Assembly (NCBI GenBank): GCA_913031395.1
Contig: CAJWDT010000010.1
Location: 1-32,336 of the forward strand
Source: an uncultured Gammaproteobacteria bacterium
Lineage (GTDB): Bacteria; Pseudomonadota; Gammaproteobacteria; Magnimaribacterales; Magnimaribacteraceae
DNA length: 32,336 nucleotides
Direction: 5' to 3'
Shown here: one piece after another, positions 1 through 30,270 of the stretch
Position numbering within the stretch: the first letter of the stretch is position 1
How the letters are laid out: every line of letters starts with the position of its first letter
The notes under the pieces: model-generated
Database searches by the model: none
What the model saw: only the letters and a program-made list of their open reading frames with translations
What the model was told of the DNA's origin: nothing
Program-made: the position numbers and the translations under genes

Positions 1-1723
1 CGTCATCATGATCGTCATGACCATCAAGCTCATCTTGAAGAGTGATGTAGTTATCTACATCATTTACATAGAAGCTTGCGTTAGCAAAGAAATCACCGCT
101 TTCATAGTTAAATGTAATATCAAAATTATTTGAGGTTTCACTTTTTAAATTAGGGTTTCCTGTCTCAAGCCTTCCAGTTGCCAAATGAGGACCATTCATA
201 AAGAGCTCGACAACTGAAGGTAACCTCTCAACACTCGCAATACCTATTGTTACATCTAAAGTTTCGCTGAGATCTCTGCCTATATTCAATGCAAAGCTAT
301 TTGTATCATCGTCTATGCTATAACTGTCGATATCATTATGTTCCGCATCTTTGATGCTTCCTGTTCTTTCTATTTGATCTATTCTAAACCCCGCATCAAG
401 ATAAAACATGTCTAGATCAGCACTCAAATAATAACCAATAGTAAATTCTTCATTATTGGCCGGTTCCATGAATTTTTCTTCACCAATAATAGAAGTATCT
501 TCATCTACAAAGTTCAATGCTATTTTTTGTATCAAATTGTCATTTGATATATCAAATATAGCTCCATACTCAGTAGCGTCATTTGAAAATACTGTTGGCT
601 CATGCTCTTCTTCATCGGCATGATCATCGTGACCTTCCTCTTCTGCATGGGCTTCAATTAAAGAATAGTCTGTATCTCTATAAGTATAAGAAACTGAATT
701 AATTAAGTTACCGTTTAGATTGTATAGACCTTTAATCGTGAAACTTTCTTGATCAGTTGTTGAAAAGATTCTTTCGCCTTCATGCTCATCGTGATCATCA
801 TCTCCATGCTCATCTCCATGATCGTCATCGTGATCATCGTCTCCATGCTCATCTCCATGATCGTCATCATGATCGTCGTGACCTTCCTCATCTGAATGCT
901 CACCATGGTAAGGAATTCCGTACATACTTTCATGATTATCAACCGAAATTCCAAAGTATCCCCATTCTCCAGCTCTAGAAATACCGAATTTAGTAGATTC
1001 TATTTCAAGATCTGAATTTTCTAGGTAAGAAAGCTCTTCTTCTCCTTCATGCTCATCATGCCCTTCATGATCTTCATCATGCATTACCGCATCATCAGGA
1101 ATATCAAAATTGCCAAATTCAGACTTCTTATAACCAACATTAACATTGAAGCCGTTTAAGTTGTCTTTGAAGTTAAAGTACTGAGAATCGCCATCATTAA
1201 CAGATTGTGTTTCGAGCCCTGCAATAAATTCTTGTGTAGTAAAATCTTCTGGGGCTATGCAATTATCGACAACATTGATAATCCCACCACTTGTTCCGTT
1301 GGCATAAAGTAAAGACGAAGGGCCTTTTACTATCTCTACTTGCTGCAAATCGTTTAAATCAATATCGTTTAAATGATCAGCTCCAAGACCGGACACGTCC
1401 CTGTTTACCATTCCATTTTTGAGTATTTTTACCCTTGGTCCGGACATTCCTCTAATAATAGGTTGTCCTACAGCAGCGCCATAATCGGCTATAGAAACAC
1501 CTAAATAACTATCTACTGCTTCACCTAAAGTAGTAGTGGCGTTATCTTCTATTTCATCGCCATCTATGACATATAGCGGGTTTAGAATCCTGCTGGGATT
1601 TAATATAGATGATGTTACAACAATCTCATCTGCATCACTTGAATTCTGATCAGAGGATTCATCAGCGTTTATTTGCGTAATAGTTAAACTCATCGCCATG
1701 AGTGCATAAAAGTAAACTTTCAT
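1..1723 (-). CDS. ZnuD-like TonB-dependent outer-membrane receptor, His/Asp-rich (partial, 3' end outside window)
   Basis: The frame is open from the ATG at 1723 to the window edge (574 codons visible). Seen: an export signal of about 20 residues ending in INA; a TonB-box-like DEIVVTSS just after it; a plug domain with GVSIADYG, QPIIRGMSGPRV and VEIVKGPSSLLYANGTSGG; then beta-barrel sequence with patterns such as NFDITFNYESGDFFANASFY. Four acidic His-rich segments stand out at about residues 215-231, 275-320, 358-376 and 565 to the edge (for example EGHDDH, DDDHGDEHG). Known: the plug resembles ZnuD-type zinc receptors, which also carry His-rich loops and use TonB energy to import metal across the outer membrane. 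Inferred: uptake of zinc or another transition metal such as copper. An AGGAG at 1729-1733, five bases from the ATG, fixes the start. The full gene would usually be about 700-780 codons. Family certain; substrate not. Confidence 0.9.
   Translation of the reverse strand, partial: MKVYFYALMAMSLTITQINADESSDQNSSDADEIVVTSSILNPSRILNPLYVIDGDEIEDNATTTLGEAVDSYLGVSIADYGAAVGQPIIRGMSGPRVKILKNGMVNRDVSGLGADHLNDIDLNDLQQVEIVKGPSSLLYANGTSGGIINVVDNCIAPEDFTTQEFIAGLETQSVNDGDSQYFNFKDNLNGFNVNVGYKKSEFGNFDIPDDAVMHDEDHEGHDEHEGEEELSYLENSDLEIESTKFGISRAGEWGYFGISVDNHESMYGIPYHGEHSDEEGHDDHDDDHGDEHGDDDHDDDHGDEHGDDDHDEHEGERIFSTTDQESFTIKGLYNLNGNLINSVSYTYRDTDYSLIEAHAEEEGHDDHADEEEHEPTVFSNDATEYGAIFDISNDNLIQKIALNFVDEDTSIIGEEKFMEPANNEEFTIGYYLSADLDMFYLDAGFRIDQIERTGSIKDAEHNDIDSYSIDDDTNSFALNIGRDLSETLDVTIGIASVERLPSVVELFMNGPHLATGRLETGNPNLKSETSNNFDITFNYESGDFFANASFYVNDVDNYITLQDELDGHDDHDD
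793..870. repeat. 39-bp tandem duplication encoding a His/Asp-rich 13-mer
   Basis: Two adjacent 39-base units (793-831 and 832-870) differ only at about two positions. In the receptor frame each encodes DDDHGDEHGDDDH, so the duplication keeps frame and lengthens a probable extracellular metal-binding loop. Shorter relatives of the unit (encoding EGHDDH) recur near 15 and 625. Confidence 0.9.
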
Positions 1724-1763
1724 GTTTTCTCCTAAATTTAAATTAAAAAAGTTTTAAGTAAAT

Positions 1764-2048
1764 TTAAGAGTTAGGTGGTGCCCTCGCACTGAAGCCCTTA
1801 GAGAAAACGGAAAGAATTTTTTCCTCTTGGCTAGATAAAGTTATTGAATTTAGCGCATAAGACTCTAAAAAGTAATGATCGTATGCTTTTAATTGTTCAC
1901 CCTCACAAAGCTGACATTCAATAACTTCGTGATGAATATCACCTTCTTCTAGAGAGTGAAGAATAGGATCAGCTGACAGACCTACTACAAAGAATAGGCT
2001 AAGTATTAATGCAAACTTATGTTTAGTAATCAGCATAGAACTGAGCAT
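1764..2048 (-). CDS. Small exported CxxC/His protein, possible zinc-chaperone-like partner of the receptor
   Basis: 94 codons (a start at the Met5 ATG, 2036, is also possible). Seen: a hydrophobic N-terminal signal (about residues 12-25), then a short polar protein with His31, His39, His40 and a Cys45-x-x-Cys48 pair in IECQLCEG, and a C-terminal SARAPP. No enzyme domain is visible. Known: small secreted proteins with a C-x-x-C core and a terminal RAPP/RGPP-like end (DUF2946-like; some annotated as zinc chaperones) often lie beside ZnuD-like receptor genes. Inferred: a periplasmic or membrane-anchored metal-binding accessory of the receptor, whose gene begins 40 bases downstream. It lies 6 bases after SCO1 on the same strand, so co-transcription with the oxidase assembly genes is likely. 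I cannot prove the family from sequence alone. Confidence 0.6.
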   Translation of the reverse strand: MLSSMLITKHKFALILSLFFVVGLSADPILHSLEEGDIHHEVIECQLCEGEQLKAYDHYFLESYALNSITLSSQEEKILSVFSKGFSARAPPNS

Positions 2049-2054
2049 ATTAGA

Positions 2055-2681
2055 CTAATTAAGAAGGGAGGCAAGTGCTTTGGATATTTTATTAGTATCA
2101 TGAGGTGCCCTAAAAAAACCTGCATATTGTGCTTCTGGATTAATGACAACAAGGCTACCAGAGTGGTCTACAGTGTAATTAGGCTCTTTACTATTAACTA
2201 CTGGGAAAAATGGGGCATTGACCTGAGTTGAAAACTTATATATTTGATCAATCTCTCCAGTTAAGCCCTGAAATTCATCATCAAAATTATTTAGATAAAT
2301 TCTAAGATTTTCAGGTTTATCTCTATCTGGATCTACAGACACGAGGAAGACCCTCATTTTATTTGAATTCTCTGACAAAGCTTCTTTCACATCTGATAAT
2401 TGTTTCATGGTTAAAGGGCATATGTCTGGGCAGTAAGTAAAGCCAAAAAATAAGATATTCCATTTCCCTTTGAATTGATCTGGAAGAAATTCATTCCCTC
2501 TATCATCTATTAAATTAAAGTCTGCTAACTGCCTTGGAGGATCAATGAAATATGCTCCGAGTGTTTTGTATTCATCCAAGGTCAATTCTCTCGGTGTATA
2601 AAATCTAGATAAGAATAAAGCTAAAATCAGGGCTATAAAGCCTAAGCAGGTTGCGACTGTTATAAAAATGCCTTTATTCAT
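2055..2681 (-). CDS. SCO1/SenC copper chaperone for cytochrome c oxidase
   Basis: 208 residues from the ATG at 2681. Seen: an N-terminal membrane anchor (about 5-25), then a thioredoxin-like domain with FGFTYCPDICP, giving the Cys84-x3-Cys88 copper motif, DPDRD around 118-122, and the distal ligand His173 in VDHSGS. Known: SCO proteins bind Cu through two Cys and one His and help load the CuA centre of oxidase subunit II in the periplasm. The start was chosen because its ATG overlaps the TGA of the heme O synthase gene (ATGA). A longer open frame reaching 2885 runs back inside that gene and lacks family similarity. Last oxidase gene before the metal-receptor module. Confidence 0.95.
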   Translation of the reverse strand: MNKGIFITVATCLGFIALILALFLSRFYTPRELTLDEYKTLGAYFIDPPRQLADFNLIDDRGNEFLPDQFKGKWNILFFGFTYCPDICPLTMKQLSDVKEALSENSNKMRVFLVSVDPDRDKPENLRIYLNNFDDEFQGLTGEIDQIYKFSTQVNAPFFPVVNSKEPNYTVDHSGSLVVINPEAQYAGFFRAPHDTNKISKALASLLN

Positions 2682-3553
2682 AAATAGATAAAATGATCTA
2701 TAAGCATCGCGCCGAACAGAGCGGCTAAATAAATTATCGAATATGCAAAAGTTGGCATAGCCAGCGCATTCGTTTCGTCTTTTAAAAGCCTGTAAGAGTA
2801 AATCAGAAATATACTCCCCAAAATTAAAGCTGAGATGAGATAAATCTCTCCGAACATCTGGACTGCATAAGGTAGCAGTGTGCATGCCAATAAAAGGAAA
2901 GTATAAAGAAGAATATGTTGCTTGGTAAATGGAACTCCTTTCTGAACAGGCAGCATTGGAACTTCGGCATCTGCATAATCTTCAACCCTGTGAACAGCCA
3001 AGGCCCAGAAATGTGGTGGCGTCCAAACCATAATGATCAATACTAGCAATAGGGCATTAGGTTCAATTGTATTAGTAATGGCTGTCCACCCAAGAAGCGG
3101 TGGCATAGCACCTGCAAGCCCGCCTATAACTATATTTTGACTCGTCATGTACTTCAAATATTTAGTATAGATAAATCCATAAAATATGAAGGTTAAGGTG
3201 GTAAGTAGCCAAGTTAGGAAATTGGTATAGAACAAGAGCATCCAAGATCCAGATAAATAGAGAATTATCGAAAAGATTATTGCCTGCCTATCCGATATTT
3301 TTCCTACCACTAGAGGCCTTTCAGAAGTTCGATTCATCTTAGAGTCTATCTTCTGATCGAAAAAATGATTAATAACAGCTGAAGATGCTGCTAAAAAACT
3401 TATACCAATCAATCCAAAGAAAAACACTTGCACAGGTGGAGTAAAGTCTGATCCTATTAGCATTCCACTAGCACAAGAAACAAATAACAACGCCTGGACT
3501 CCGGGCTTTGTTAGCTCGAGATAACCTCTCCAATTAGATAGTATCGATATCAT
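2678..3553 (-). CDS. ctaB: Protoheme IX farnesyltransferase (heme O synthase)
   Basis: 291 residues, an integral membrane prenyltransferase of the UbiA superfamily that adds a farnesyl group to heme B to make heme O. Seen: first aspartate motif NHFFDQKIDSKMNRT (Asn62, Asp66, Asp70) followed by RPLV, second motif VEDYADAEVPM (Asp192, Asp195), about eight or nine hydrophobic helices, and the PPHFWALA segment (179-186). Length is normal for the family. It lies 3 bases after heme A synthase, which uses its product, and overlaps the SCO1 start by 4 bases. Also known as cyoE in quinol-oxidase operons; the cox neighbours favour ctaB. Confidence 0.97.
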   Translation of the reverse strand: MISILSNWRGYLELTKPGVQALLFVSCASGMLIGSDFTPPVQVFFFGLIGISFLAASSAVINHFFDQKIDSKMNRTSERPLVVGKISDRQAIIFSIILYLSGSWMLLFYTNFLTWLLTTLTFIFYGFIYTKYLKYMTSQNIVIGGLAGAMPPLLGWTAITNTIEPNALLLVLIIMVWTPPHFWALAVHRVEDYADAEVPMLPVQKGVPFTKQHILLYTFLLLACTLLPYAVQMFGEIYLISALILGSIFLIYSYRLLKDETNALAMPTFAYSIIYLAALFGAMLIDHFIYL

Positions 3554-3556
3554 ATA

Positions 3557-4534
3557 TTAATGTTCTCTTAACCTTAGAACACCTAAATAAGTAATCAATA
3601 ATAACCCACCTAAATTGTGACCTACAGCAATTAATAAAGGCAATGCAAAAATCACATTAGAGATTCCTAATAAAACCTGCAATGTCAAAAAGGCTATAAG
3701 TCCATATGCCAAATTTTTAAAATTTCTTTTATATAGGTGAAAACTGAAAATTAATAAAAACAAAGTTACCACTACAGCACCGAACCTATGTGTTAAATGA
3801 ATCGCAACTCTAGATTCATGATCTAATTGACCGCCAAGATAATTTGGGCCAATACTCTGAAAGAAATTGAATCCTTCTTTGAAGTTGGCTTCTGGGAGCA
3901 ACTGTCCCTGACACAAAGGCAAATCAGTGCATGAATAAGAGGCATAATTTGTACTTGTCCACGCGCCTAAGAATATTTGAATTGCGACTAAAATAATTGA
4001 TACATTGAATAGCTTCTTCGTCGATGCCTCGAACTTCCATTGACTTCTTTCTTGGATTAAATCTTTAGTTCTGAAATATAAGAGCCAGACAAGAGCAGTC
4101 GTCAAAAAACCTGACATAAGATGTGTAGTGACGACTTGAGGCCAAAGCTTAAGACTGACAGTTAAATAACCGAATGTGCCTTGCATAATTACCCAAACCA
4201 ATAAAAAGTAACTTAATTTTTTTATATTTGATGGAACCTCTTTGTGTTTAAAGGCCAAGAAGGCCATGCATACTATGAAAAATCCAAGAGCGGCAGCAAA
4301 ATACCTATGTACAACCTCAGGAATAGCTTTAGCAACTTCATAGGGTGTCTCAGGAAATTTTGAATTAGCTATATTTATTTCTTCTGGACTGACAGGTATC
4401 GTTACAAATCCATAGCATCCAGGCCAATCAGGGCATCCTAAACCTGCATCAGCTAATCTAGTCCATGCTCCAAGAGCAACCACTACGAATCCAAGAATAC
4501 CAGACCAAAGGGAAAGAGTTTTTATGCGTTCCAT
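3557..4534 (-). CDS. ctaA: Heme A synthase (CtaA/COX15)
   Basis: 325 residues, about eight membrane helices. The enzyme oxidises the C8 methyl of heme O to the formyl of heme A for the oxidase. Seen: the four expected heme-ligand histidines at about His76 (EVVHRYFAA), His138 (TTHLMSG), His249 (HLTHRFGA) and His306 (VGHNLGG). There are two cysteine pairs in non-membrane loops, Cys34/Cys40 (GLGCPDWPGC) and Cys202/Cys208 (SCTDLPLC), as in the cysteine-pair class of CtaA. Two bases separate it from the CxxxC protein gene upstream and three from ctaB downstream, so it belongs to the same unit. Confidence 0.96.
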   Translation of the reverse strand: MERIKTLSLWSGILGFVVVALGAWTRLADAGLGCPDWPGCYGFVTIPVSPEEINIANSKFPETPYEVAKAIPEVVHRYFAAALGFFIVCMAFLAFKHKEVPSNIKKLSYFLLVWVIMQGTFGYLTVSLKLWPQVVTTHLMSGFLTTALVWLLYFRTKDLIQERSQWKFEASTKKLFNVSIILVAIQIFLGAWTSTNYASYSCTDLPLCQGQLLPEANFKEGFNFFQSIGPNYLGGQLDHESRVAIHLTHRFGAVVVTLFLLIFSFHLYKRNFKNLAYGLIAFLTLQVLLGISNVIFALPLLIAVGHNLGGLLLITYLGVLRLREH

Positions 4535-4536
4535 GC

Positions 4537-5121
4537 CTATCCTATTTTTGAGTTTTGAAGAACTTTTTTAATATCTTGTAACAGTTCACCACTAGGAAGG
4601 GTTGAATCATAGATGAGTATTCCATTACCTAGAGGATCAAACAAAATATAAGGGGAGTCCTTTAATTTATTAGAAATAGACGACGGAACTAAATCTGAAT
4701 TAATTTTTCCTGTGTTAAGAAGCGGGTATTCCTCTTCAATTTTTATAATAGATTCTTCAGATAAATTATTTTTATCTATATTGATGAGGTACCTGACTAC
4801 TCTATCGCTATTCTTTGCCAATCGTATGTTAATTTGTCTGGAGGAGTACAAGGTATCCCAACATTTTTCTTCACAATCTCCAGAAACAAACTGAACAATT
4901 GACCACTTGCCAGGATATTCATCTACTAATGGGCCGGATTCTACTTTCAGTTTTAAGTCACTAAGCTGGATAGGTTCAGATAATAAAGTTCCTTTGTTAA
5001 CAGTTCCTTCAGGTGTATATCCGCTATAGAACATGGCCGAACTAGATAATAAAACTATTATTGGAGTTAAAAATATTAAAGAAGCTATTATTCTTCCAGA
5101 ATTTTGTTTACTTATTTTCAT
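4537..5121 (-). CDS. Membrane-anchored CxxxC protein of the cox cluster, function unknown
   Basis: 194 residues. Seen: one N-terminal membrane helix (about 11-30), then a soluble domain of likely thioredoxin-like shape with WSIVQFVSGDCEEKCWDTLY, giving Cys83-x3-Cys87, the same spacing as the SCO copper motif. I see no obvious equivalent of the SCO distal His. Known: a poorly studied protein of this size and motif sits between SURF1 and ctaA in many gammaproteobacterial cox clusters. Inferred: a role in CuA loading or cysteine reduction during oxidase assembly. An AGGA at 5128-5131, six bases from the ATG at 5121, decides the start; a TTG two codons earlier (5127) overlaps the SURF1 stop and is less likely. 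Confidence 0.75.
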   Translation of the reverse strand: MKISKQNSGRIIASLIFLTPIIVLLSSSAMFYSGYTPEGTVNKGTLLSEPIQLSDLKLKVESGPLVDEYPGKWSIVQFVSGDCEEKCWDTLYSSRQINIRLAKNSDRVVRYLINIDKNNLSEESIIKIEEEYPLLNTGKINSDLVPSSISNKLKDSPYILFDPLGNGILIYDSTLPSGELLQDIKKVLQNSKIG

Positions 5122-5123
5122 GA

Positions 5124-5822
5124 TCAATCCTTTTTAAATCCGTAATAGAAAAATGAACAAATTAAAACTATTGCTAATCCAAACCATTGGAGGGCATATC
5201 CGTAATGCCTTGAGGGTTTTAAGTCAACAGGCTTCCAAATTGGTTCGAGAGCTCCGCTTGAACCTGCAGACAATTGAATAACAGAATTATTTATATTCGA
5301 ACCTAAATCTTTCTTGGCAGCTTCGTAATCAATTTGCTGAACTAGTTTTGGCCAAGTATCTACGTAACTCTCGTCTACTAAATTAAGCCCAAATCTGGTG
5401 AATGGAGAGAGAAGACCCTGAATAGAAATGCCTTTTTCTTTTAACAGAATATCTTCATCATAATTAAAACCTTCTTTGGATATCCAACCCCTGTTAATTA
5501 AAAATACGCTATTTTCGGAGGTTTCAAATGTTGTAAAAACCTCATATCCTGCCTCTTGTCTGTAAAGTCTATTATCCAGAAGATAAGACTCTTGGCCAAA
5601 TTCTCCATAGAGATTAACGGTTCTATATTTAAGATTATCCTCATTCATTACAGACATTTCTTTTTCATTGATCACAGGCAAAGATTTATTCATATAGTGT
5701 TTTTCAACAATATCAGTCTTATCAATGCCCCTGCTTACTTGCCACGAGCCTAGGAAGATTAAAATAGGAAAGAAAAACATGACAAAAATGGTCATTGGCT
5801 TTCCCGGACGAAATTTACTCAT
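5124..5822 (-). CDS. SURF1-family cytochrome c oxidase assembly protein
   Basis: 232 residues. Seen: SURF1 layout with one helix at each end (about 10-28 and 207-227) around a periplasmic domain. Conserved segments include LGSWQVSRG near the first helix, LLDNRLYRQEAGYEVFT, and INRGWI. Near the second helix is SRHYGYALQWFGLA, the typical RHxxYAxQWF signature. Known: SURF1 helps insert heme A into oxidase subunit I. It is the first minus-strand gene after the inverted small gene at 5866-6063 and needs its own promoter or read-through; a symmetric -10-like element lies about 20 bases upstream. Confidence 0.93.
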   Translation of the reverse strand: MSKFRPGKPMTIFVMFFFPILIFLGSWQVSRGIDKTDIVEKHYMNKSLPVINEKEMSVMNEDNLKYRTVNLYGEFGQESYLLDNRLYRQEAGYEVFTTFETSENSVFLINRGWISKEGFNYDEDILLKEKGISIQGLLSPFTRFGLNLVDESYVDTWPKLVQQIDYEAAKKDLGSNINNSVIQLSAGSSGALEPIWKPVDLKPSRHYGYALQWFGLAIVLICSFFYYGFKKD

Positions 5823-5842
5823 ATTTTTTTTATTAACCTAAG

Positions 5843-5850
5843 TGTATACT
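5843..5850. promoter_or_regulatory. Candidate shared divergent -10 element (SURF1 / two-helix protein)
   Basis: The octamer TGTATACT contains the palindrome GTATAC and reads TATACT rightwards and TATACA leftwards. It sits in the 43-base gap between the divergent starts at 5822 and 5866, 20 and 15 bases from them. I see no good -35 hexamer on either side, so this is a candidate only. The identical octamer occurs in the purE/def gap. Confidence 0.4.
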
Positions 5851-5865
5851 GCTCATCCTTTCAAG

Positions 5866-6063
5866 ATGATCAAATACTTTATAATTTTCCTAATCGTAGC
5901 TATGTTTATTAGTCTTTTTAGGGGCGCCTTTTTCCTAATTAAAGACGGCGGCTCATCTAAAAGAACCGTTCATAGCTTGGGCGTCAGAGTTTCTATTGCG
6001 ATCGTTCTCTTTATAACTCTAGTTTATGGTTTTGTTACTGGGCAAATTGGCCCAGGAGTTTAA
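5866..6063 (+). CDS. Small two-helix membrane protein (DUF2909-like twin transmembrane protein)
   Basis: 65 residues. Seen: helix 1 about residues 4-26, a short basic loop (KDGGSSKRTVHSLGVR), helix 2 about 42-58, and a GQIGPGV tail. This layout fits the small twin-transmembrane family commonly found beside coxC and SURF1 in gammaproteobacteria; its function is unknown, and an assembly role is only guilt by association. It is the only plus-strand gene in the cox locus, placed tail to tail with coxC (6-base gap). The ATG at 5866 was chosen; a GTG at 5842 would add eight polar residues and lie inside the likely promoter. Confidence 0.75.
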   Translation: MIKYFIIFLIVAMFISLFRGAFFLIKDGGSSKRTVHSLGVRVSIAIVLFITLVYGFVTGQIGPGV

Positions 6064-20180: not shown

Positions 20181-22652
<2,472 letters not shown>

Positions 22653-22672
22653 CTATGTATTTTAATATAAAT

Positions 22673-23743
22673 TTAGATATTTATCTGCGTAAAATTGGTC
22701 AATTTCTTTAAACAAGAAAGCATTTCGTCACCTTCAATGCCCGTTAAGATTACTTGATGATTAATCTTGAGTATCTCTTCAAGTATCGAGGTTAAGTTAT
22801 GTGCATCCAACTCTGAACTTAAATCGTCAATCATCAATATTGTTTCTGTGTCTTTTAAGTTCTTAAGAAGGCTATAGTTAGATAAAAATATCAATAAAAT
22901 CAATATCTTAAGTTGGCCTCTAGAAAGATTTGAACCTGCTCTTTTTTTATTGATGTTGAAAGTAAAGTCCATGCGGTGTGGGCCTTTAGAGGTATAGCCC
23001 AATGCCTTGTCTCTCTCGATACAATCGTCTAAAGATTCATCGAGTTTTTTTGATCTTTCCCAGCCCTTAGAAAAACTAACATCCAGTCCTTCAAGAAAAT
23101 TAAAAGAATCAACTGAAGTGATGTCTTCAATATACTTCTTTGAGTAATTTTTAAAATGCTTAAAAAAATCATACTGAAGTAAGCTTAAATCAAGGCCGAT
23201 GGAGGACACTTCTTTTGTCCATATATCAATTTCTGAATTATCTCTTTTATTTTTCAGCGCTCTGTTGCGTTGCTTTAAAGCTTTGGTGTATTTGTTGCTT
23301 ATTTTTTTTACATCAGGTTTCACGTGGAACATTAAATCATTAAAATAATCTCTTCTTATATCAGGCTCTCCATCAATCATTTTCAAATCTCTTGAAAGAA
23401 TGGCCTGTAAATAAAAAAGATCATCTTGTCTGATTTTCTTTCCATCTAATATCCGATTTGTAGTAAGTCGACCCTCCAGACTATTAAAGGCTTTAAGACT
23501 AACCTTACCTTCTCCTATAAGGCCATTGGCTGAAATAGCATAAGAGTCTTTTTCGCTTTTAATGCACTCCTTAGTATCTTTTGTTCTAAACGATTTACCG
23601 GACAATAATATATTTAAAGATTCCAGGATAGAGGTTTTTCCTGATCCATTTATACCTAATATTAAGTTTGTTCCTTCTGTGAAGGTGAATGTTTTCTCTT
23701 GGAATAGCCTAAAATCTTTTAGGTACAACCTCTCTAGAGGCAT
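22673..23743 (-). CDS. recF: DNA replication and repair protein RecF
   Basis: 356 residues. SMC-like ATPase that loads RecA at gaps. Seen: Walker A GINGSGKTS (30-38) after LERLYLKDFRLF, the ABC-type signature LSRGQLKIL, and Walker B ILMIDDLSSELD in the C-terminal third. Length is normal. Its ATG shares one base with the dnaN stop (TAATG), so translation is coupled. Confidence 0.96.
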   Translation of the reverse strand: MPLERLYLKDFRLFQEKTFTFTEGTNLILGINGSGKTSILESLNILLSGKSFRTKDTKECIKSEKDSYAISANGLIGEGKVSLKAFNSLEGRLTTNRILDGKKIRQDDLFYLQAILSRDLKMIDGEPDIRRDYFNDLMFHVKPDVKKISNKYTKALKQRNRALKNKRDNSEIDIWTKEVSSIGLDLSLLQYDFFKHFKNYSKKYIEDITSVDSFNFLEGLDVSFSKGWERSKKLDESLDDCIERDKALGYTSKGPHRMDFTFNINKKRAGSNLSRGQLKILILLIFLSNYSLLKNLKDTETILMIDDLSSELDAHNLTSILEEILKINHQVILTGIEGDEMLSCLKKLTNFTQINI

Positions 23744-24843
23744 TAGAGCCTCATAGGCATAATAACGTAGACATCATCTTCGGAACCAGATTCTTTGATG
23801 ATACAACTTGAATCTTCTCCATAAAATTCAAAGTGTACCGTTTCGCTTTCAATGGAGTTAAGAACATCCAGTAAATAGCCAATGTTAAACCCTACTTCTA
23901 GTTCTACACCTTCATAAACAACATCCAAAACCTCTTCTGCAGACTCTTGTTCTGGGTTGTTTGCTGTCAGCTTTAGTTTTCCTTTAGATAACTGGAATCT
24001 AACACCTCTGTATTTCTCGTTAGAGAGTACTGAAGCCCTTGAAAGAGCTGACTGAAGCAGATCTTTGCTTATTTCCAGGGGTAAAGGATCACCTGTAGGG
24101 AAAACTTTATCGTAATCTGGATACTTTCCATCAATGAGCTTGCTTGAAAAGCTTAGATTTTGACATTTCACATCAACATATGAAGGTCCAATCATTAAAT
24201 CTACAGTCTCCTCTCCTGTAGAAAGAAGCTTTGATAGCTCAAGAACTGCTTTTCTTGGGAGAATGTTCCTAACCTCGAGACCTCCCGAAACAGATTGAGC
24301 AGAAGAAAAAGCTAGTCTATGTCCATCTGTTGCTACGCCATTCACTTTACTACCTTCAAGCTCTAACAGCATTCCATTTAAATAGTATCTTACATCCTGA
24401 GAAGCCATAGAGAACGATGTTTTAGAAAGAATTCGTTTTAAAACACCAGACTGAATACTCACAGGCGTTTGTTCTTCATTAATTTCAATCTCTGGAAAAT
24501 CATCAGAAGATATAGTGGCGAAATCTGCATGGAAATTATTAGAACTTACTGTTAGTTTCCCGTTAGCGAGAGAAAAATTTACATTTTCACCTTCCGGTAA
24601 TGACCTACACAACTCCGACATTTTCCTTGCTGAAACAGTAGTTTCGCCCTCTTCCTGAATTTCTTTTAACTCACAATATGTTTTTATCTGTATTTCAAGG
24701 TCTGTTGCTGTTACTTCAAGTTTTCCTTCTACTATCTTAAGTCTTAAGTTTGCAAGAATTGGAATTGTTTGTCTTCTTTCTGCAACTGCGGCAGCGTTTT
24801 GAAGAGAGTCTACAATCTGAGATTTTTCTGTGATAAATTTCAT
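23743..24843 (-). CDS. dnaN: DNA polymerase III beta sliding clamp
   Basis: 366 residues, same length as the E. coli clamp. Three repeated clamp folds of about 120 residues each; conserved segments include PILANLRL near the N terminus, ATDLEI, VNGVATDGHRLA, FPTGDP and the closing VIMPMRL that forms part of the partner-binding pocket. Known: homodimeric ring that tethers polymerase III and other enzymes. It follows dnaA by 7 bases. Confidence 0.98.
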   Translation of the reverse strand: MKFITEKSQIVDSLQNAAAVAERRQTIPILANLRLKIVEGKLEVTATDLEIQIKTYCELKEIQEEGETTVSARKMSELCRSLPEGENVNFSLANGKLTVSSNNFHADFATISSDDFPEIEINEEQTPVSIQSGVLKRILSKTSFSMASQDVRYYLNGMLLELEGSKVNGVATDGHRLAFSSAQSVSGGLEVRNILPRKAVLELSKLLSTGEETVDLMIGPSYVDVKCQNLSFSSKLIDGKYPDYDKVFPTGDPLPLEISKDLLQSALSRASVLSNEKYRGVRFQLSKGKLKLTANNPEQESAEEVLDVVYEGVELEVGFNIGYLLDVLNSIESETVHFEFYGEDSSCIIKESGSEDDVYVIMPMRL

Positions 24844-24850
24844 TTAGATA

Positions 24851-26218
24851 TTATATAGTTAAAACCCTTAAAAGCTTCCTATAATCCTCTTCTATGTCTA
24901 GGTTGAAATCCCTAAGCTCATTTATCTTTTTGCACGCATGGATAACTGTAGTGTGATCTCTTCCACCAAAGGATTCACCTATCTCTGGGAGACTGTAATT
25001 AGTAAGTTCTTTTGCCAAAAACATAGCCATTTGCCTTGGTCTCGCAACAGAACGGCTCCTGCGCTTAGAGAGAATATCACTCAGTTTGATGTTGTAATAC
25101 TCTGCTGTTGTCTTTTGAATATTTTCAACACTTACCTGTCTGGCCTGGATAGCAAGCAGATCTTTTAGAGAATCCTTAATAAGATCAACAGATATAGGGC
25201 GGCCAGTAAAGTTTGAATTAGCAATAACTCTTTTTAAGGCACCCTCTAGCTCTCTTACATTGGATTTAACCTTTTGAGCTATAAAGAATGCAGATTCCTC
25301 ATTTAACTCCTGGTTCATAGACTGAGCCTTTCCAAGTAAGATGGCAACTCTGGTTTCTAGCTCTGGAGGTTCGATAACAACAGGCAAGCCCCAGCCAAGT
25401 CTAGATTTCAGTCTGTCTTCTAAACCATCAATTTCTTTTGGGTATCGATCACAAGTCAAAATCATTTGACTGCCCTTTTCTAATAACGAGTTAAATGTGT
25501 GAAATAGCTCTTCTTGAGATTGTTCTTTTTTTGCAAAGAATTGTATGTCATCTATCAGCAGAGCATCTAAAGATCTGTAGTACTGTTTAAATTCGCTAAT
25601 TGCCCCTAATTGTAGTGATTTTACCATATCACTCACGAACTTCTCAGAGTGAACATAAGATATTTTCTTGGTTGGGTCTTTCCTTAAAAGCTCATTTCCA
25701 ACAGCATGCATTAAATGAGTTTTGCCCAATCCAACTCCACCGTATATAAAAAGAGGATTATATGAGTTTTTCAATCCATCTCCTATTTGACGGGATGCCG
25801 CAAGGGCAATATTGTTAGACTTTCCCTCAACAAAAGAATCGAAAGTAAAACCCTCTATGAGATTGCTTTTCTTAGGCGGCCTAGGTAGAGAGTTGTTTTG
25901 TTCGGTGGGTGGGTTGTTATCTTCGCTCTCATTATTAATAACATTTCCCTTGTCATAATAATCTACAAGAATTTCAAAATTTATATTCAAGTCTCTGTTG
26001 CTTGTTATGGCTGAAATTCTTTCTTTTATAGTTAAACCATAGTTATCTTCTACCCAATCTGATATAAATTTATTTGGAGCTAAAACGCTGTAAGATGGCG
26101 GGGTTGAGCCATTATTTTGTTCTAGTGTTAGAGGCGCTATCCAGGTAGAATACTCTTCTACTGGTAAATCTCTTTCCAAAGTTTTCTTACATTCTCCCCA
26201 AAAGTGTATTTCTGTCAT
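24851..26218 (-). CDS. dnaA: Chromosomal replication initiator DnaA
   Basis: 455 residues. Seen: domain I (1-85), a polar linker rich in Asn, Glu and Pro (about 90-118), the AAA+ domain with Walker [10 protein letters not shown] (160-168), Walker B LLIDDIQF (220-227), sensor motifs and SRLGWGL. Domain IV carries the DNA-binding signature [15 protein letters not shown] (418-432). Known: binds 9-mer boxes at oriC, melts DNA and represses its own gene. Two perfect boxes lie 30-67 bases upstream of its ATG, and a TATAAT lies only 8 bases upstream, so the transcript may be almost leaderless. Confidence 0.99.
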
Positions 26219-26226
26219 ATTGATCG

Positions 26227-26232
26227 ATTATA
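26227..26232 (-). promoter_or_regulatory. dnaA -10 element (TATAAT)
   Basis: A perfect TATAAT on the minus strand lies 8 bases upstream of the dnaA ATG. At 16-18 base spacing the -35 region falls on the first DnaA box (26248-26256), which fits autorepression. A second possibility is TATACT at 26256-26261, giving a leader of about 30 bases. Confidence 0.45.
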
Positions 26233-26247
26233 TACAAACTAACAGAC

Positions 26248-26256
26248 TTATCCACA
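26248..26256 (+). promoter_or_regulatory. DnaA box (perfect TTATCCACA)
   Basis: Exact match to the strong DnaA 9-mer, 30 bases upstream of dnaA. It probably serves both origin function and dnaA autoregulation. Confidence 0.8.
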
Positions 26257-26276
26257 GTATAAACACAGATATTTAT

Positions 26277-26285
26277 TGTGGATAA
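26277..26285 (-). promoter_or_regulatory. DnaA box (perfect TTATCCACA, reverse strand)
   Basis: TGTGGATAA on the plus strand, inverted relative to the box at 26248-26256 and 20 bases from it. Confidence 0.8.
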
Positions 26286-26315
26286 CTTGTTGATATATTG
26301 TAGTGATCTTTTTAC

Positions 26316-26344
26316 TTGTTTAAATGTTATAAAAACTCTATTAT
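26316..26344 (+). promoter_or_regulatory. Sigma70-like promoter for rpmH-rnpA operon
   Basis: TTGTTT (26316-26321) and TATTAT (26339-26344) are spaced by 17 bases; predicted transcription start near 26351, about 20 bases before the rpmH ATG. Strongest promoter seen in the window, as expected for a ribosomal protein gene. Confidence 0.7.
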
Positions 26345-26370
26345 GCGCAACCAATTACCTTTTAAGCATT

Positions 26371-26505
26371 ATGAAAAGAACATATCAGCCCAGTAAGATT
26401 AAGAGAGCAAGGACTCATGGTTTTCGCACTAGAAACTCAACTTTGGGTGGGAAAAAAGTTTTAAGCAGCAGAAGGAAAAAGGGGAGGCTTTCTCTCACGG
26501 TATAA
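26371..26505 (+). CDS. rpmH: 50S ribosomal protein L34
   Basis: 44 residues, the usual length. Seen: [19 protein letters not shown] at the N terminus, then a basic C-terminal half ([12 protein letters not shown]). The ATG at 26371 was chosen by family alignment; an in-frame codon at 26278 would run back through the promoter and a DnaA box. Its stop is immediately followed by the rnpA ATG. Confidence 0.98.
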
Positions 26506-26835
26506 ATGGGCCTCAAGCGCTCTATTTCCTCAAAAGAAGGTTTCAAAGAAATCTTCGACTCTCCAGATCAAAAACATTCAACCCCCAATATATTGATCTT
26601 GTCTAAGAACAATTGCCTGGGTTATGCTCGTGTGGGTGTGGCTATTAGAAAAAAAGATACGAGGCTTGCGGTAGATAGAAATAACATTAAAAGAAAAATA
26701 AAAGGAAGTTTTCGTTCAAAGGTTCTAGAATTACCGGATAGAGATTTTGTTGTTTATGTGAAAAGAAACCTCAAAGGAAAAGAGAGGGAGCTGAAGGAAG
26801 ATCTAGAGAAAATCTGGAAAAAATTTTATAAGTAA
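26506..26835 (+). CDS. rnpA: Ribonuclease P protein component
   Basis: 109 residues. Protein cofactor of the RNase P ribozyme that trims the 5' ends of tRNA precursors. Seen: an N-terminal [27 protein letters not shown], and the conserved RNR-type region [14 protein letters not shown], with a very basic composition. It abuts rpmH with no gap, the near-universal bacterial pairing. Confidence 0.95.
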
Positions 26836-26837
26836 AA

Positions 26838-27074
26838 ATGGTAAAAAAGGCATTCATAAAAAGCATCAGGCTATACCAAAAAGTGCTCAGCCCATTACTG
26901 GGTCAGAACTGTAGATTTCATCCTACTTGTTCGCAATACGCGATTGAGGCATTGGATCATCATGGTGTTTTATATGGTTCATTTTTAGCGCTAAAAAGAA
27001 TAATGAAATGCAACCCCTGGGGTGGCAGCGGAATAGACAATGTCCCTAATGGAGAAAGACATGGATGTGATTAA
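26838..27074 (+). CDS. yidD: Membrane protein insertion efficiency factor YidD
   Basis: 78 residues. Seen: an amphipathic N-terminal segment ([20 protein letters not shown]), conserved [15 protein letters not shown] and [21 protein letters not shown], with Cys25, Cys31 and Cys58 as in the family. Known: small inner-face membrane protein that aids YidC-dependent insertion. It overlaps yidC by 14 bases. Confidence 0.96.
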
Positions 27075-28707
27075 GACTTCGCTTATTTTAGCTATTGCAA
27101 TAACGTTTTATTACCTACTTTTACAGTGGCCACAAGGGTCTGATATGCAGGCTAATAATATTTATGAAGACAATAAAAGGCTGAGTATAGATAGTAGTGA
27201 GTACTTACAAACTAAACCTTTATTACAGCCCAATGACACTCCGAGTTTAAGCGCTATGACCGAACAGGAAACGGTAGAAGATGTAAGTGTTGATGGTGTT
27301 ATTTTTACAATAGAAAATGAAGATTTAATCCTGGAAATTGATGGCTCTAACGGCAGGATATTTAAATCCCTTTTCAAGGGTGTTAAAGAGACGCTAGGAT
27401 CAGAAAAGCCTCTGCCTTTACTTGGGGCAGATGACCAAAATTCTTACTTTGCAAATAGTGGTTTTTTTGATGATGTTAAAAACTCTTATATATATCCAAA
27501 CTTTACAAAGATGGTCCCGGCTGAGAACGATGATGGTTCTGTTACATATATATTCTCAGGTGAAAGTGAAGGGTTGTTTTTATCTAAAGAAATTACTCTT
27601 GCAGAACGAGGTTACGAAATCAAAGTGGAAGACGGAATAAGGTCTGACGGCAACAGAGAAAGTACAAATGTTGTTCCTTATGCGGTAATTGAATCAGAGT
27701 CTCCACAAAAAAAAGATCTTGGTTTTTTTAGCCCTGAAAGATTTGCTTATCATGGGCCGGTATTCTCTACTAATCAGGAAAAGTATGAAAAATATGGCTT
27801 TGATGACCTTCTAGATGAGTCTTATTCCGAGACATCTAGTGGTGGTTGGGTAGCAATCATACAACACTATTTTTTAACTGCCTGGATTCCTGAGCAGTCA
27901 AATGAAAACAAACTGCAAGGTAGGTTCACTGGAAGCAACCAACGTTTTTCAGTGGGTTACACGGGCGAAAAGATGTATTTACAGCCTGGCAATGCGGTTT
28001 TTTCAAGCAATACTCTCTATGTGGGGCCAAAACTGCCCGAACAACTCTCAAAAATTCAAGAAGATCTTAGCTTGACGGTAGATTATGGCTTCTTGTGGTG
28101 GTTGGGCAAGCCAATGTATTGGTTACTTAATATAGGGAATTCTTTGTTTAATAACTGGGGTTTGGCGATTATCTTTCTTACGGTTGTGATTAAACTTTTA
28201 ACATGGCCTCTATCTGCTAAAGCCTATGTTTCTATGGGTAAGTTAAGGGAATTACAGCCAAAAATGGCCCTTTTACAAGAAAAACATGGTGACAACAAAC
28301 AAGCGATGAGCCAAGAGCTTATGGAGATGTATAAAAAAGAAGGTGTTAATCCGCTGGGTGGTTGTTTGCCTATGCTTCTTCAGATGCCTTTTTTCTTAGC
28401 TTTTTACTGGGTTTTGCTTGAGACGGTAGAGCTTAGACACTCTCCTTTGTTTTGGATAAACGACTTATCTGACATGGATCCATATTTTATTCTTCCTATC
28501 TTAAATGCCGCGGGAATGTTTTTATCTCAGAAAATGACACCCACGCCTCCAAACGCAGACCCTATGCAGGCTCAAATGATGAAAATGTTTCCGTTAGTTT
28601 TTGCCTTTATGTTTGCCTGGTTCCCTTCTGGTCTCGTTCTTTACTGGACAATGAACATGGCCATACAAATACTGCAACAGTGGTGGTATTCTAGAAAAAC
28701 CGCCTAA
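27061..28707 (+). CDS. yidC: Membrane protein insertase YidC
   Basis: 548 residues from the chosen start. Seen: an N-terminal helix (about 3-22), a large periplasmic domain (about 30-330) as in Gram-negative YidC, and the conserved C-terminal insertase core with five helices, beginning near [21 protein letters not shown] (about 363). [20 protein letters not shown] and FPSGLVLYW follow. Known: inserts inner-membrane proteins alone or with SecYEG. A GGAG at 27051-27054, six bases before the ATG at 27061, picks this start over ATGs at 27040 and 27049. Confidence 0.98.
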
Positions 28708-28714
28708 TTCCCTG

Positions 28715-30031
28715 TTGATTGATAGTAGAACTATAATTGCACCTGCGTCTGCGTCCGGGAGAGGGGGTATTTCTGTCATAAGAATGTCTGGGCCTCTATC
28801 TAACAAAATTGCAAAAGAAATGTGTGGCGAGCTTGCAGAGCCTTGGCGTTTCAAGAAATGTAACATCACTTCCAATAATGGTTCCTTAATAGATGTTGGT
28901 ATGGTTGTTTTTTTTAAATCACCTTACTCTTACACAGGAGAGGATATTGTTGAGTTTCATTGTCACGGCAACCCGATGATTGTTAACTTAATAATAGAAA
29001 GTGCATTAGTGTTAGGGGCGGTTGTAGCTGAACCTGGTGAGTTTACGAAAAAGGCCTTTTTAAATGATAAAATTGATCTTGCCCAAGCCGAATCTGTTGC
29101 TGATTTAATTAACGCCCAAAGCGAAAGCGCTATTATTGCCGCAAATTCTTCTCTTTCGGGTAACTTTTCTAAACAAGTTAATGGCATATTAGATGAGTTG
29201 ACGGAGGCAAGGGTTTTTGTAGAGGCTAATATAGATTTTCCAGATGAAGATATTGATAGAACGCATATGGAAAATCTGAACGAAAGACTGATTAAGTTGT
29301 TAGGTGTTGTAAGCGGGTTATTAACTTCTGTCCAAGACGGTGTGAAATTGCGTGAGGGTTATAGCGTCGCTATAGTTGGCCCGCCAAATGCCGGCAAATC
29401 AACACTGCTTAATTTGTTAGCTCGCGAGAGAGTTGCCATTACTTCTGATATCGAAGGAACAACCAGAGATTTGGTGAGAGTGCCGGTGAATTTGGCTGGT
29501 CTGATTATAGAGTTCATTGACACTGCGGGCATTAGGGAAGACCCTGAAAATTCAATAGAAGAGGAAGGTATTAGTAAATCCATAGAAGTTATAAATAAAT
29601 CTAATATTACCCTGGTAGTCCAAGACTCTACGTCTGTTAAACCGTTTAATGTTGAACTTGGGGAATCGATAGTTGTGATGAATAAGTCAGATTTGATGAA
29701 GGAATCACAACCAAATGATAAAAACGCTTTTTATGTGTCTTCTGTTTCAGGTGAGGGTGTGCCTGAACTCTTGAGTGAGTTAATTAAAAAGCTCGAGGTA
29801 GATGAAGGAGGTGAAACGGTTTTTTTATCCAGAAAAAGACATGAAGAGTGTTTAATAAAGGGTCGTGATTTTATAGATGAATCCTTGGAGGGTCTAAGGC
29901 AAGATTTGGGGCTTGAGTTGATAGCTGAAAATTTAAAGGAATCTCATAATGTTTTAGGAGAAATATTAAGACCCATGAGTTCAGACGATCTACTGGGTGA
30001 AATTTTCTCAGAATTTTGTATAGGTAAGTAG
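28715..30031 (+). CDS. mnmE: tRNA modification GTPase MnmE
   Basis: 438 residues, slightly shorter than the usual 450. With MnmG it installs the cmnm5 group on U34 of certain tRNAs. Seen: an N-terminal folate-binding TIIAPASASGRGGISVIRMSG, the GTPase motifs GPPNAGKS (222-229), TT (249-250), DTAG (269-272) and NKSD (323-326), and the C-terminal catalytic CIGK (435-438). The start is TTG, 7 bases after yidC. Partner mnmG follows after a 231-base gap with origin-like features. Confidence 0.97.
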   Translation: MIDSRTIIAPASASGRGGISVIRMSGPLSNKIAKEMCGELAEPWRFKKCNITSNNGSLIDVGMVVFFKSPYSYTGEDIVEFHCHGNPMIVNLIIESALVLGAVVAEPGEFTKKAFLNDKIDLAQAESVADLINAQSESAIIAANSSLSGNFSKQVNGILDELTEARVFVEANIDFPDEDIDRTHMENLNERLIKLLGVVSGLLTSVQDGVKLREGYSVAIVGPPNAGKSTLLNLLARERVAITSDIEGTTRDLVRVPVNLAGLIIEFIDTAGIREDPENSIEEEGISKSIEVINKSNITLVVQDSTSVKPFNVELGESIVVMNKSDLMKESQPNDKNAFYVSSVSGEGVPELLSELIKKLEVDEGGETVFLSRKRHEECLIKGRDFIDESLEGLRQDLGLELIAENLKESHNVLGEILRPMSSDDLLGEIFSEFCIGK

Positions 30032-30119
30032 TTGTAAAAAAACTGTTAGAAGAATTTTATTTTTTGTGAGTTAATTTTTTTACCAACAAAATGTACAACA
30101 AAATAAAAGGTTGTTCTTT

Positions 30120-30144
30120 GGGTGGCTAACAGGGTTAGTTTCCC
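30120..30144 (+). other. Hairpin-capable inverted repeat
   Basis: GGG...CTAAC, loop AGG, then GTTAG...CCC: a five-base-pair inner stem and a three-base-pair outer stem separated by a 3x3 internal loop. No U-run follows, so it is not a clear intrinsic terminator for mnmE. Confidence 0.3.
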
Positions 30145-30176
30145 GTAAGAACCTTATAAACTTTATGCCGCAGCGT

Positions 30177-30185
30177 TTATTCACA
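30177..30185 (+). promoter_or_regulatory. DnaA box (TTATTCACA)
   Basis: Matches the relaxed consensus TTATNCACA exactly, 78 bases upstream of mnmG and directly before the AT-rich stretch. Confidence 0.6.
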
Positions 30186-30199
30186 GGAAGGTGTGTCCC

Positions 30200-30258
30200 T
30201 AATAATAACTAATTAATATAAAATACATTTAAAGATAAAATTCTAAAATTAATATTAA
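30200..30258. other. AT-rich stretch, candidate DNA unwinding element
   Basis: About 59 bases containing only four or so G/C bases, composed of TAATAA/TAATTAATA-like elements. It is bracketed by DnaA boxes at 30177 and 30262. Candidate by composition and position only. Confidence 0.4.
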
Positions 30259-30261
30259 GGT

Positions 30262-30270
30262 TGTGGATAA
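30262..30270 (-). promoter_or_regulatory. DnaA box (perfect TTATCCACA, reverse strand) over the mnmG start codon
   Basis: TGTGGATAA on the plus strand; the mnmG GTG start (30263-30265) lies inside it. Same orientation as the box at 26277-26285. Confidence 0.7.

Follow-up and report, generated by a model that had tools for sequence, protein, structure and literature searches.

The window analysed here is a stretch of 32,336 nucleotides from an uncultured gammaproteobacterium whose nearest relatives with a name belong to the SAR86 cluster. This bacterial clade is uncultured and abundant in the surface ocean. At the start of the window, which is also the start of contig C10 in a genome of 1.08 Mb with a completeness of 80.8%, the reverse strand encodes a TonB-dependent receptor that is preceded by a short leader ORF and by genes for cytochrome c oxidase assembly (Table 1). 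The receptor ORF is open throughout and, as no contig is left past base 1, its product is truncated at residue 574; complete orthologues mostly comprise about 700-780 residues.

Some features of the flanking sequence should be mentioned. The open frame of SCO1 (2055-2885, minus strand) overlaps widely with CyoE and its true start is probably near 2681, which would make the ORF of 276 residues over-long. The protein of 196 residues in the oxidase assembly cluster (4537-5127, minus strand) has no Pfam match and is found at the same place in relatives. A small ORF with two membrane segments, perhaps a DUF2909 protein, is located between Cox3 and SURF1 (5842-6063, plus strand); it splits the oxidase cluster, so that the genes from SURF1 to the receptor may represent a transcription unit of their own. 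Further along, positions 20181-32125 contain gyrB, recF, dnaN and dnaA on the minus strand, followed by a short rnpA-like ORF, yidC, mnmE and mnmG on the plus strand. These genes were named by eye, and the region looks like a chromosomal origin.

Table 1. Features of the receptor locus, with positions in the window.
Feature	Position	Strand	Basis or remark
ZnuD-type TonB-dependent receptor, 574 aa, cut by contig end	2..1723	-	ATG at 1723; profile and fold matches
His/Asp/Glu segment 4, start only (aa 568-574, ...GHDDHDD), cut by contig end	2..22	-	predicted extracellular loop L8
H513, aligned with ZnuD zinc ligand His499	185..187	-	alignment
His/Asp/Glu segment 3 (aa 355-378)	590..661	-	predicted extracellular loop L4
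E357, aligned with ZnuD zinc ligand Glu340	653..655	-	alignment
His/Asp/Glu segment 2 (aa 271-319), 39-bp tandem repeat	767..913	-	predicted extracellular loop L3
His/Asp/Glu segment 1 (aa 209-232)	1028..1099	-	predicted extracellular loop L2
D116-H117 in plug, aligned with ZnuD zinc ligands Asp99-His100	1373..1378	-	alignment; PMC4557270
Stem 3' arm AAAUUUAGGAG, contains receptor Shine-Dalgarno AGGAG (1729-1733)	1729..1739	-	RNA folding
Stem 5' arm CUCUUAAAUUU, anti-Shine-Dalgarno; last leader codons over stop codon	1760..1770	-	RNA folding
Leader ORF, 94 aa: putative signal peptide, His cluster, CXXC, C-terminal RAPP	1764..2048	-	start 2048 or 2036
Leader RAPP arrest motif (AGG GCA CCA CCT), two codons before stop	1773..1784	-	function: PMC9426467, PMC12992588, PMC10951233
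Leader CXXC (CQLC)	1905..1916	-	motif alignment
SCO1, CyoE, CtaA, 196-aa protein, SURF1 (cytochrome c oxidase assembly), upstream, same strand	2055..5822	-	leader and receptor are the last two genes

The His/Asp/Glu-rich segments of the receptor were delimited by a fixed rule (windows of 14 residues in which His occurs 3 times or more and His, Asp and Glu together make up 60% or more). The sequence-only reading had counted four such segments. By our rule, the window holds three full segments, the longest of which spans 49 residues, and a fourth that has just begun at the contig end. Four segments, and five in some lineages, are found at homologous places in the complete orthologues from SAR86. 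19 of the 25 His residues of the window receptor are located inside the three full segments, and three or more segments were obtained in only 1 of 5000 composition-preserving shuffles of the protein. Three other TonB receptors were found in the same genome, and the two that were scored by the same rule had no segment. The DNA of the longest segment is a 39-bp tandem repeat of 2.3-2.8 copies, which is probably responsible for the variation in the length of this segment among relatives. The receptor was present in 100 of 121 genomes sampled from the SAR86 order, and in 37 of the 39 good-quality ones. Two SAR86 receptor sets, one of them this order-wide sample, were obtained by whole-protein searches; an early search for relatives used patterns that included His-rich stretches, so that the matches outside SAR86 are biased to His-rich receptors.

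The plug of the receptor had been described as ZnuD-like, and this likeness was found to extend past the plug. ZnuD ranked first in an NCBIfam profile search (3.6e-55), in a PDB profile search (8e-147 across the whole length; 493.7 bits versus 137.6 bits for haem receptors) and in a Foldseek comparison (4rdt, 1.4e-40), in which OprC/NosA formed the second-best fold family (8e-30). No receptor for organic ligands without metal loops came out on top in these comparisons. With the narrow NCBIfam model NF038289, the truncated window protein scored 187.9 bits, which is below the curated cut-off of 950 bits, and a subfamily call by this model is not claimed. The receptor is a new member of the ZnuD type, found in the SAR86 order. 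In ZnuD of Neisseria meningitidis (PDB 4RDR, 4RDT and 4RVW), the buried zinc ligands are Asp99, His100, Glu340 and His499 in mature numbering (PMC4557270), corresponding to D113, H114, E354 and H513 in chain numbering (the offset of 14 was checked on 288-HDDDNAHAHTH-298). These ligands align residue by residue with D116, H117, E343 and H501 of the complete orthologue from a close relative (L032), and the four residues were invariant in all 54 aligned relatives. The CxxxM-HxM copper site that characterises the OprC/NosA receptors (PMC8610252) is absent from the SAR86 receptor, as neither pattern was found in the truncated window protein or in five complete relatives.

An AlphaFold2 model of the L032 receptor, built with 54 sequences (pLDDT 80, pTM 0.81), has 22 strands. 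If the chain is assumed to enter the first barrel strand from the periplasm, which is the case in known TonB receptors, the four segments map to odd-to-even strand connections, namely L2 (residues 204-238), L3 (270-303), L4 (347-364) and L8 (553-597), and none of them is found in periplasmic turns or in the plug. The pLDDT values drop below 50 in the middle of these loops. The model therefore predicts that all four segments are extracellular, disordered loops, in line with the surface position that the sequence-only reading had envisaged. In its fold, plug, D/H/E/H site and His/Asp-rich extracellular loop 3, the SAR86 receptor resembles ZnuD. However, the His/Asp stretches of ZnuD are confined to loop 3 (PMC2895646, PMC4557270), whereas the SAR86 receptor has four or five charged loops and lacks the disulfide cysteines of loop 3.

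Of the two possible start codons of the leader ORF, the one at 2036 resembles those of relatives more than the one at 2048. The hydrophobic N-terminus is plain from the sequence by eye. SAR86 relatives have, at the same place, a short ORF that begins with a hydrophobic stretch and contains His residues, a CXXC motif and, at least two residues before the stop codon, RAPP. The CXXC and RxPP motifs were invariant in 41 of 41 aligned leaders, a set that had been chosen for having both. Across the 40 distinct SAR86 leaders of the first set, the last Cys of CXXC and the Arg of RAPP were always 41 (33 cases) or 42 (7 cases) residues apart, while the distance from the start to CXXC varied from 35 to 45. 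As an independent check, 40 further loci of the SAR86 order from other families were fetched afterwards, some of which are close kin and one of which is identical to an earlier locus. An RxPP leader was present just upstream of the receptor in 36 of these, with CXXC at 41-43 in 33 of the 36; a QAPP leader was found in 3 loci and no leader in 1. The QAPP leaders (L161, L164 and L167, all from SAR86 family f2) represent a natural loss of the key Arg. Three loci of family f4 have a leader without CXXC.

This anatomy suggests a metal-sensing arrest leader of the CruR/CutF type. In the CruR-CrtA (BfrG) system of Bordetella pertussis (PMC9426467, PMC12914433), the leader, which is exported, likewise has CXXC and a C-terminal RAPP and lies directly upstream of a TonB receptor. 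The CXXC of CruR senses copper and its RAPP stalls the ribosome (PMC9426467); arrest at RAPP was demonstrated in vitro, where the P site holds the third codon of the motif and the A site the fourth (PMC12992588). The SAR86 unit nevertheless differs from CruR-CrtA in several respects. The receptor is closest to ZnuD by sequence and fold; the leader is not the first gene of the operon, as it follows SCO1 in the window and other genes elsewhere; the intergenic distance is about 40 nt in most SAR86 loci as compared with 162 bp in CruR; the CXXC-RAPP distance is 41-43 rather than 46; and a stem that occludes the Shine-Dalgarno sequence is found where CruR uses Rho termination. In addition, PepSY_TM follows in over 75% of the loci of the CrtA cluster, whereas no PepSY_TM gene was recognised adjoining the SAR86 units. 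CutF-CutO of Rhodobacter capsulatus (PMC9973294) shares with the SAR86 unit a leader that is exported in CutF and putatively so in SAR86, a Cys motif, a proline-rich end and a stem-loop that shields the downstream Shine-Dalgarno sequence, but CutF has CxxxC, governs a copper oxidase and would be expected to act in the opposite direction, with metal switching the gene on. The general association of RAPP/RGPP small proteins with downstream TonB-dependent receptors has been surveyed across bacteria (PMC12992588) in a text that has nothing on Shine-Dalgarno sequences, stem-loops or zinc. By analogy, the window leader may work like CruR. We call it CruR-like, rather than CruR, because it gave no match to Pfam DUF2946 (PF11162); among the 41 leaders, 6 matched this family at E-values up to 0.1 (best 4.9e-4), and the locus of one relative scored 16.1 bits against a cut-off of 23.7. 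Matches of the leader to Peptidase_M3_N, CcmH and DUF2607 in Pfam and to flavodoxin in NCBIfam were below cut-off and were taken as spurious.

The Shine-Dalgarno sequence of the receptor is predicted to pair with the end of the leader. In the window, 11 positions are paired (1770-1760 with 1739-1729), with a z-score of -3.96 relative to shuffles. Across SAR86 loci, we determined the pairing of the Shine-Dalgarno sequence with the footprint of a stalled ribosome, defined as the stretch of 23 nt expected to be covered during arrest at RAPP. Among 38 distinct SAR86 loci, the median probability of this pairing was 0.96, as compared with 0.23 when the upstream part was dinucleotide-shuffled; 71% of these loci were individually below p = 0.05, and 14 thinned lineages together gave a p-value of 8e-10. 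With 60 nt of extra upstream context, the median pairing of the Shine-Dalgarno sequence was still 0.95. Freeing the Shine-Dalgarno sequence costs a median of 8.7 kcal/mol, but only 2.4 kcal/mol when the footprint is masked, with a residual structure of 2-4 kcal/mol remaining. At 24 other tandem SAR86 gene starts, which served as controls, the median cost of opening was 1.1 kcal/mol and the maximum 3.0 kcal/mol.

The position of the anti-Shine-Dalgarno sequence is not the same in all clades. In the genus of the window, it lies after RAPP, in the last codons and the stop codon, whereas in other clades it includes the Pro-Pro codons (CCUCCU versus AGGAGG). The pairing has therefore been kept by different solutions and not as one inherited stretch. 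Among close relatives, 94% of the stem positions are paired, as compared with at most 62% when the stem is slid. Covariation within the stem is weak, with a single double change, which is partly due to the high AT content and the similarity of the sequences. The claim of a switch therefore rests on the pairing relative to shuffles, on the gene controls and on the shifting positions of the anti-Shine-Dalgarno sequence. At the 40 further loci, the median Shine-Dalgarno-footprint pairing was 0.75; it was weak in a few other lineages, and in genus g12 of family f3 it was absent from 8 of 8 loci. The Shine-Dalgarno switch is thus widespread but not universal in SAR86. The g12 loci (L129, L132, L133, L134, L136, L140, L145 and L147) have kept the leader, with an intergenic distance of 53-57 nt, and may use another form of control. 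A second small hairpin (AUGAAAG/CUUUUAU; 1706-1723, minus strand) contains the start codon of the receptor; it is also present in several relatives and may only reflect the conserved start of the protein. Rfam searches near the leader returned only chance matches to miRNAs and snoRNAs, and predicted promoters and terminators between SCO1 and the receptor were not above shuffles.

The gene order CyoE - SCO1 - leader - receptor, all on the same strand, is found in the genus of the window and in genus g6; longer flanks, such as that of the window, also show SURF1, CtaA and oxidase subunits further upstream. The leader and receptor occur as a pair without oxidase genes in the remaining SAR86 clades that were examined; at one locus (L038), MerC is located downstream of the unit. 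Outside SAR86, the receptor class adjoins Zur (L064, L067 and L068) or ZIP (L097). RAPP leaders are also present in L064, where the leader lacks CXXC, and in L068 and L097, and none was recognised in L067. At L097 (5189-10226), a RAPP leader separates two tandem ZnuD-like receptors, and a ZIP transporter follows downstream. Two Pseudohongiella loci (L068:14200-16386 and L067:14200-16079) contain a second leader-like ORF, which in L067 ends in RGPP and has CYLC, near ORFs for a MerC-like protein and a COG0523 GTPase; fragments of a second receptor are also present in L068.

From these features, we infer a mechanism in which a ZnuD-type outer-membrane receptor is induced by metal starvation and its translation is gated by its own upstream leader. 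Overall, we regard this mechanism as probable. By analogy with ZnuD, the His/Asp/Glu loops would gather divalent metal at the cell surface for transfer to the D/H/E/H site, which lies between plug and barrel, and from there it would be imported in a TonB-driven manner. Translation of the leader would immediately precede that of the receptor. Under metal scarcity, the ribosome would stall with the two RAPP prolines in the P and A sites, as was shown for CruR, and the sequence and the computed energies suggest that the stalled ribosome would cover the anti-Shine-Dalgarno sequence at the RAPP and stop codons, which would open the stem and permit translation of the receptor. If metal is abundant, the CXXC/His region of the nascent leader, having just emerged from the exit tunnel, may bind it; the stall would then be relieved, the stem would re-form and the receptor would be switched off. 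A translational switch of this kind would allow control of the receptor without a promoter of its own, with leader and receptor riding in an oxidase-assembly operon or with unrelated genes.

With moderate confidence, we consider zinc to be the most likely metal. This view is supported by the invariance of the ZnuD ligands, by the missing OprC motif and by the outgroup receptors that adjoin zinc genes. Copper comes second, as a less likely candidate: the same switch could serve a receptor that feeds periplasmic copper to the adjacent oxidase assembly (SCO1, PCuAC), like CrtA in Bordetella, with a leader that senses copper like CruR. This is thinkable because of the oxidase operon, in which leader and receptor directly follow CyoE and SCO1, because of the CXXC of the leader, through which CruR answers to copper (PMC9426467), and because CrtA supplies copper for haem-copper oxidases (PMC12914433). 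Moreover, among 35 genomes of the family, PCuAC is present in 31, whereas ZnuA, ABC-3 and ZIP were each found in none, and there is at most one Fur-family protein per genome and no Zur-like second Fur gene. As neither these transporters nor a Zur-like gene were found, it is not evident by which route zinc would cross the inner membrane in SAR86. Unlike ZnuD, the SAR86 receptor has a candidate translational leader. Neither ZnuABC nor a Zur-like gene was found in the clade, and no Zur box in the window, where two matches with 3 mismatches each were below chance expectation. However, since a Nramp-like protein, which leaves a possible route for zinc or manganese, is present in 21 of the 35 genomes, the content of inner-membrane transporters is not decisive for copper versus zinc. 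COG0523 (PF02492) was above cut-off in 25 of the 35 genomes, but with mixed scores that are not informative. Against copper also speak the lack of an oxidase neighbourhood in the other SAR86 clades examined and a binding site made up of the residues of a zinc receptor. It is very improbable that the receptor takes up haem or another organic ligand, with His segments unrelated to transport. The TonB-hemin and haem receptor profiles do rank second and the fold of ZnuD resembles that of haem receptors (PMC4557270), but ZnuD leads by a wide margin in bit score, none of the four zinc ligands varies and the His-rich loops have kept their positions.

Two other explanations concern the leader. It could be an ordinary small secreted metal chaperone, with the stem merely coupling the translation of both genes at a fixed ratio, without stalling or sensing. 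The leader indeed has a putative signal peptide and His/Cys residues, and the opening of an occluded Shine-Dalgarno sequence by upstream translation is a common coupling device. We nevertheless judge this unlikely, as the C-terminal RxPP and the distance of 41-43 residues to CXXC have been kept despite drifting sequence between them, which fits an arrest peptide and would have no reason in a chaperone, and as the RAPP of CruR stalls ribosomes in vitro (PMC12992588). Slightly less likely still is that the leader stalls but acts through Rho-dependent attenuation, as does CruR of Bordetella (PMC9426467), and that the stem is incidental. The g12 loci, which keep the leader without footprint pairing, would fit this explanation, whereas the short intergenic distance in most SAR86 loci, as compared with CruR, and the pairing of the Shine-Dalgarno sequence far above shuffles and gene controls in most lineages argue against it. 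Going one step further, we tentatively propose that SAR86 controls its one ZnuD-type receptor solely via a nascent-chain zinc sensor whose stalling codons would at the same time serve as the anti-Shine-Dalgarno sequence; in some clades, these would be the Pro-Pro codons of RAPP themselves.

His-rich ZnuD receptors, RAPP leaders upstream of TonB receptors and stems that shield Shine-Dalgarno sequences are each already known. In the open-licence papers that were consulted, we found no description of a RAPP leader and a Shine-Dalgarno stem combined in a ZnuD-type receptor, of arrest codons that overlap an anti-Shine-Dalgarno sequence, or of this SAR86 locus, and no priority is claimed. If the leader senses zinc, metal-sensing arrest leaders, which have so far been experimentally shown only for copper, would extend beyond copper, and the locus would offer an explanation for the control of a ZnuD-type receptor in genomes that have no Zur-like gene. 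With copper as the metal, the locus would be a case of a ZnuD-type receptor recruited to the respiratory oxidase. The locus thus bears on the sensing of trace metals by SAR86, and the proposed switch can be tested cheaply without a SAR86 culture.
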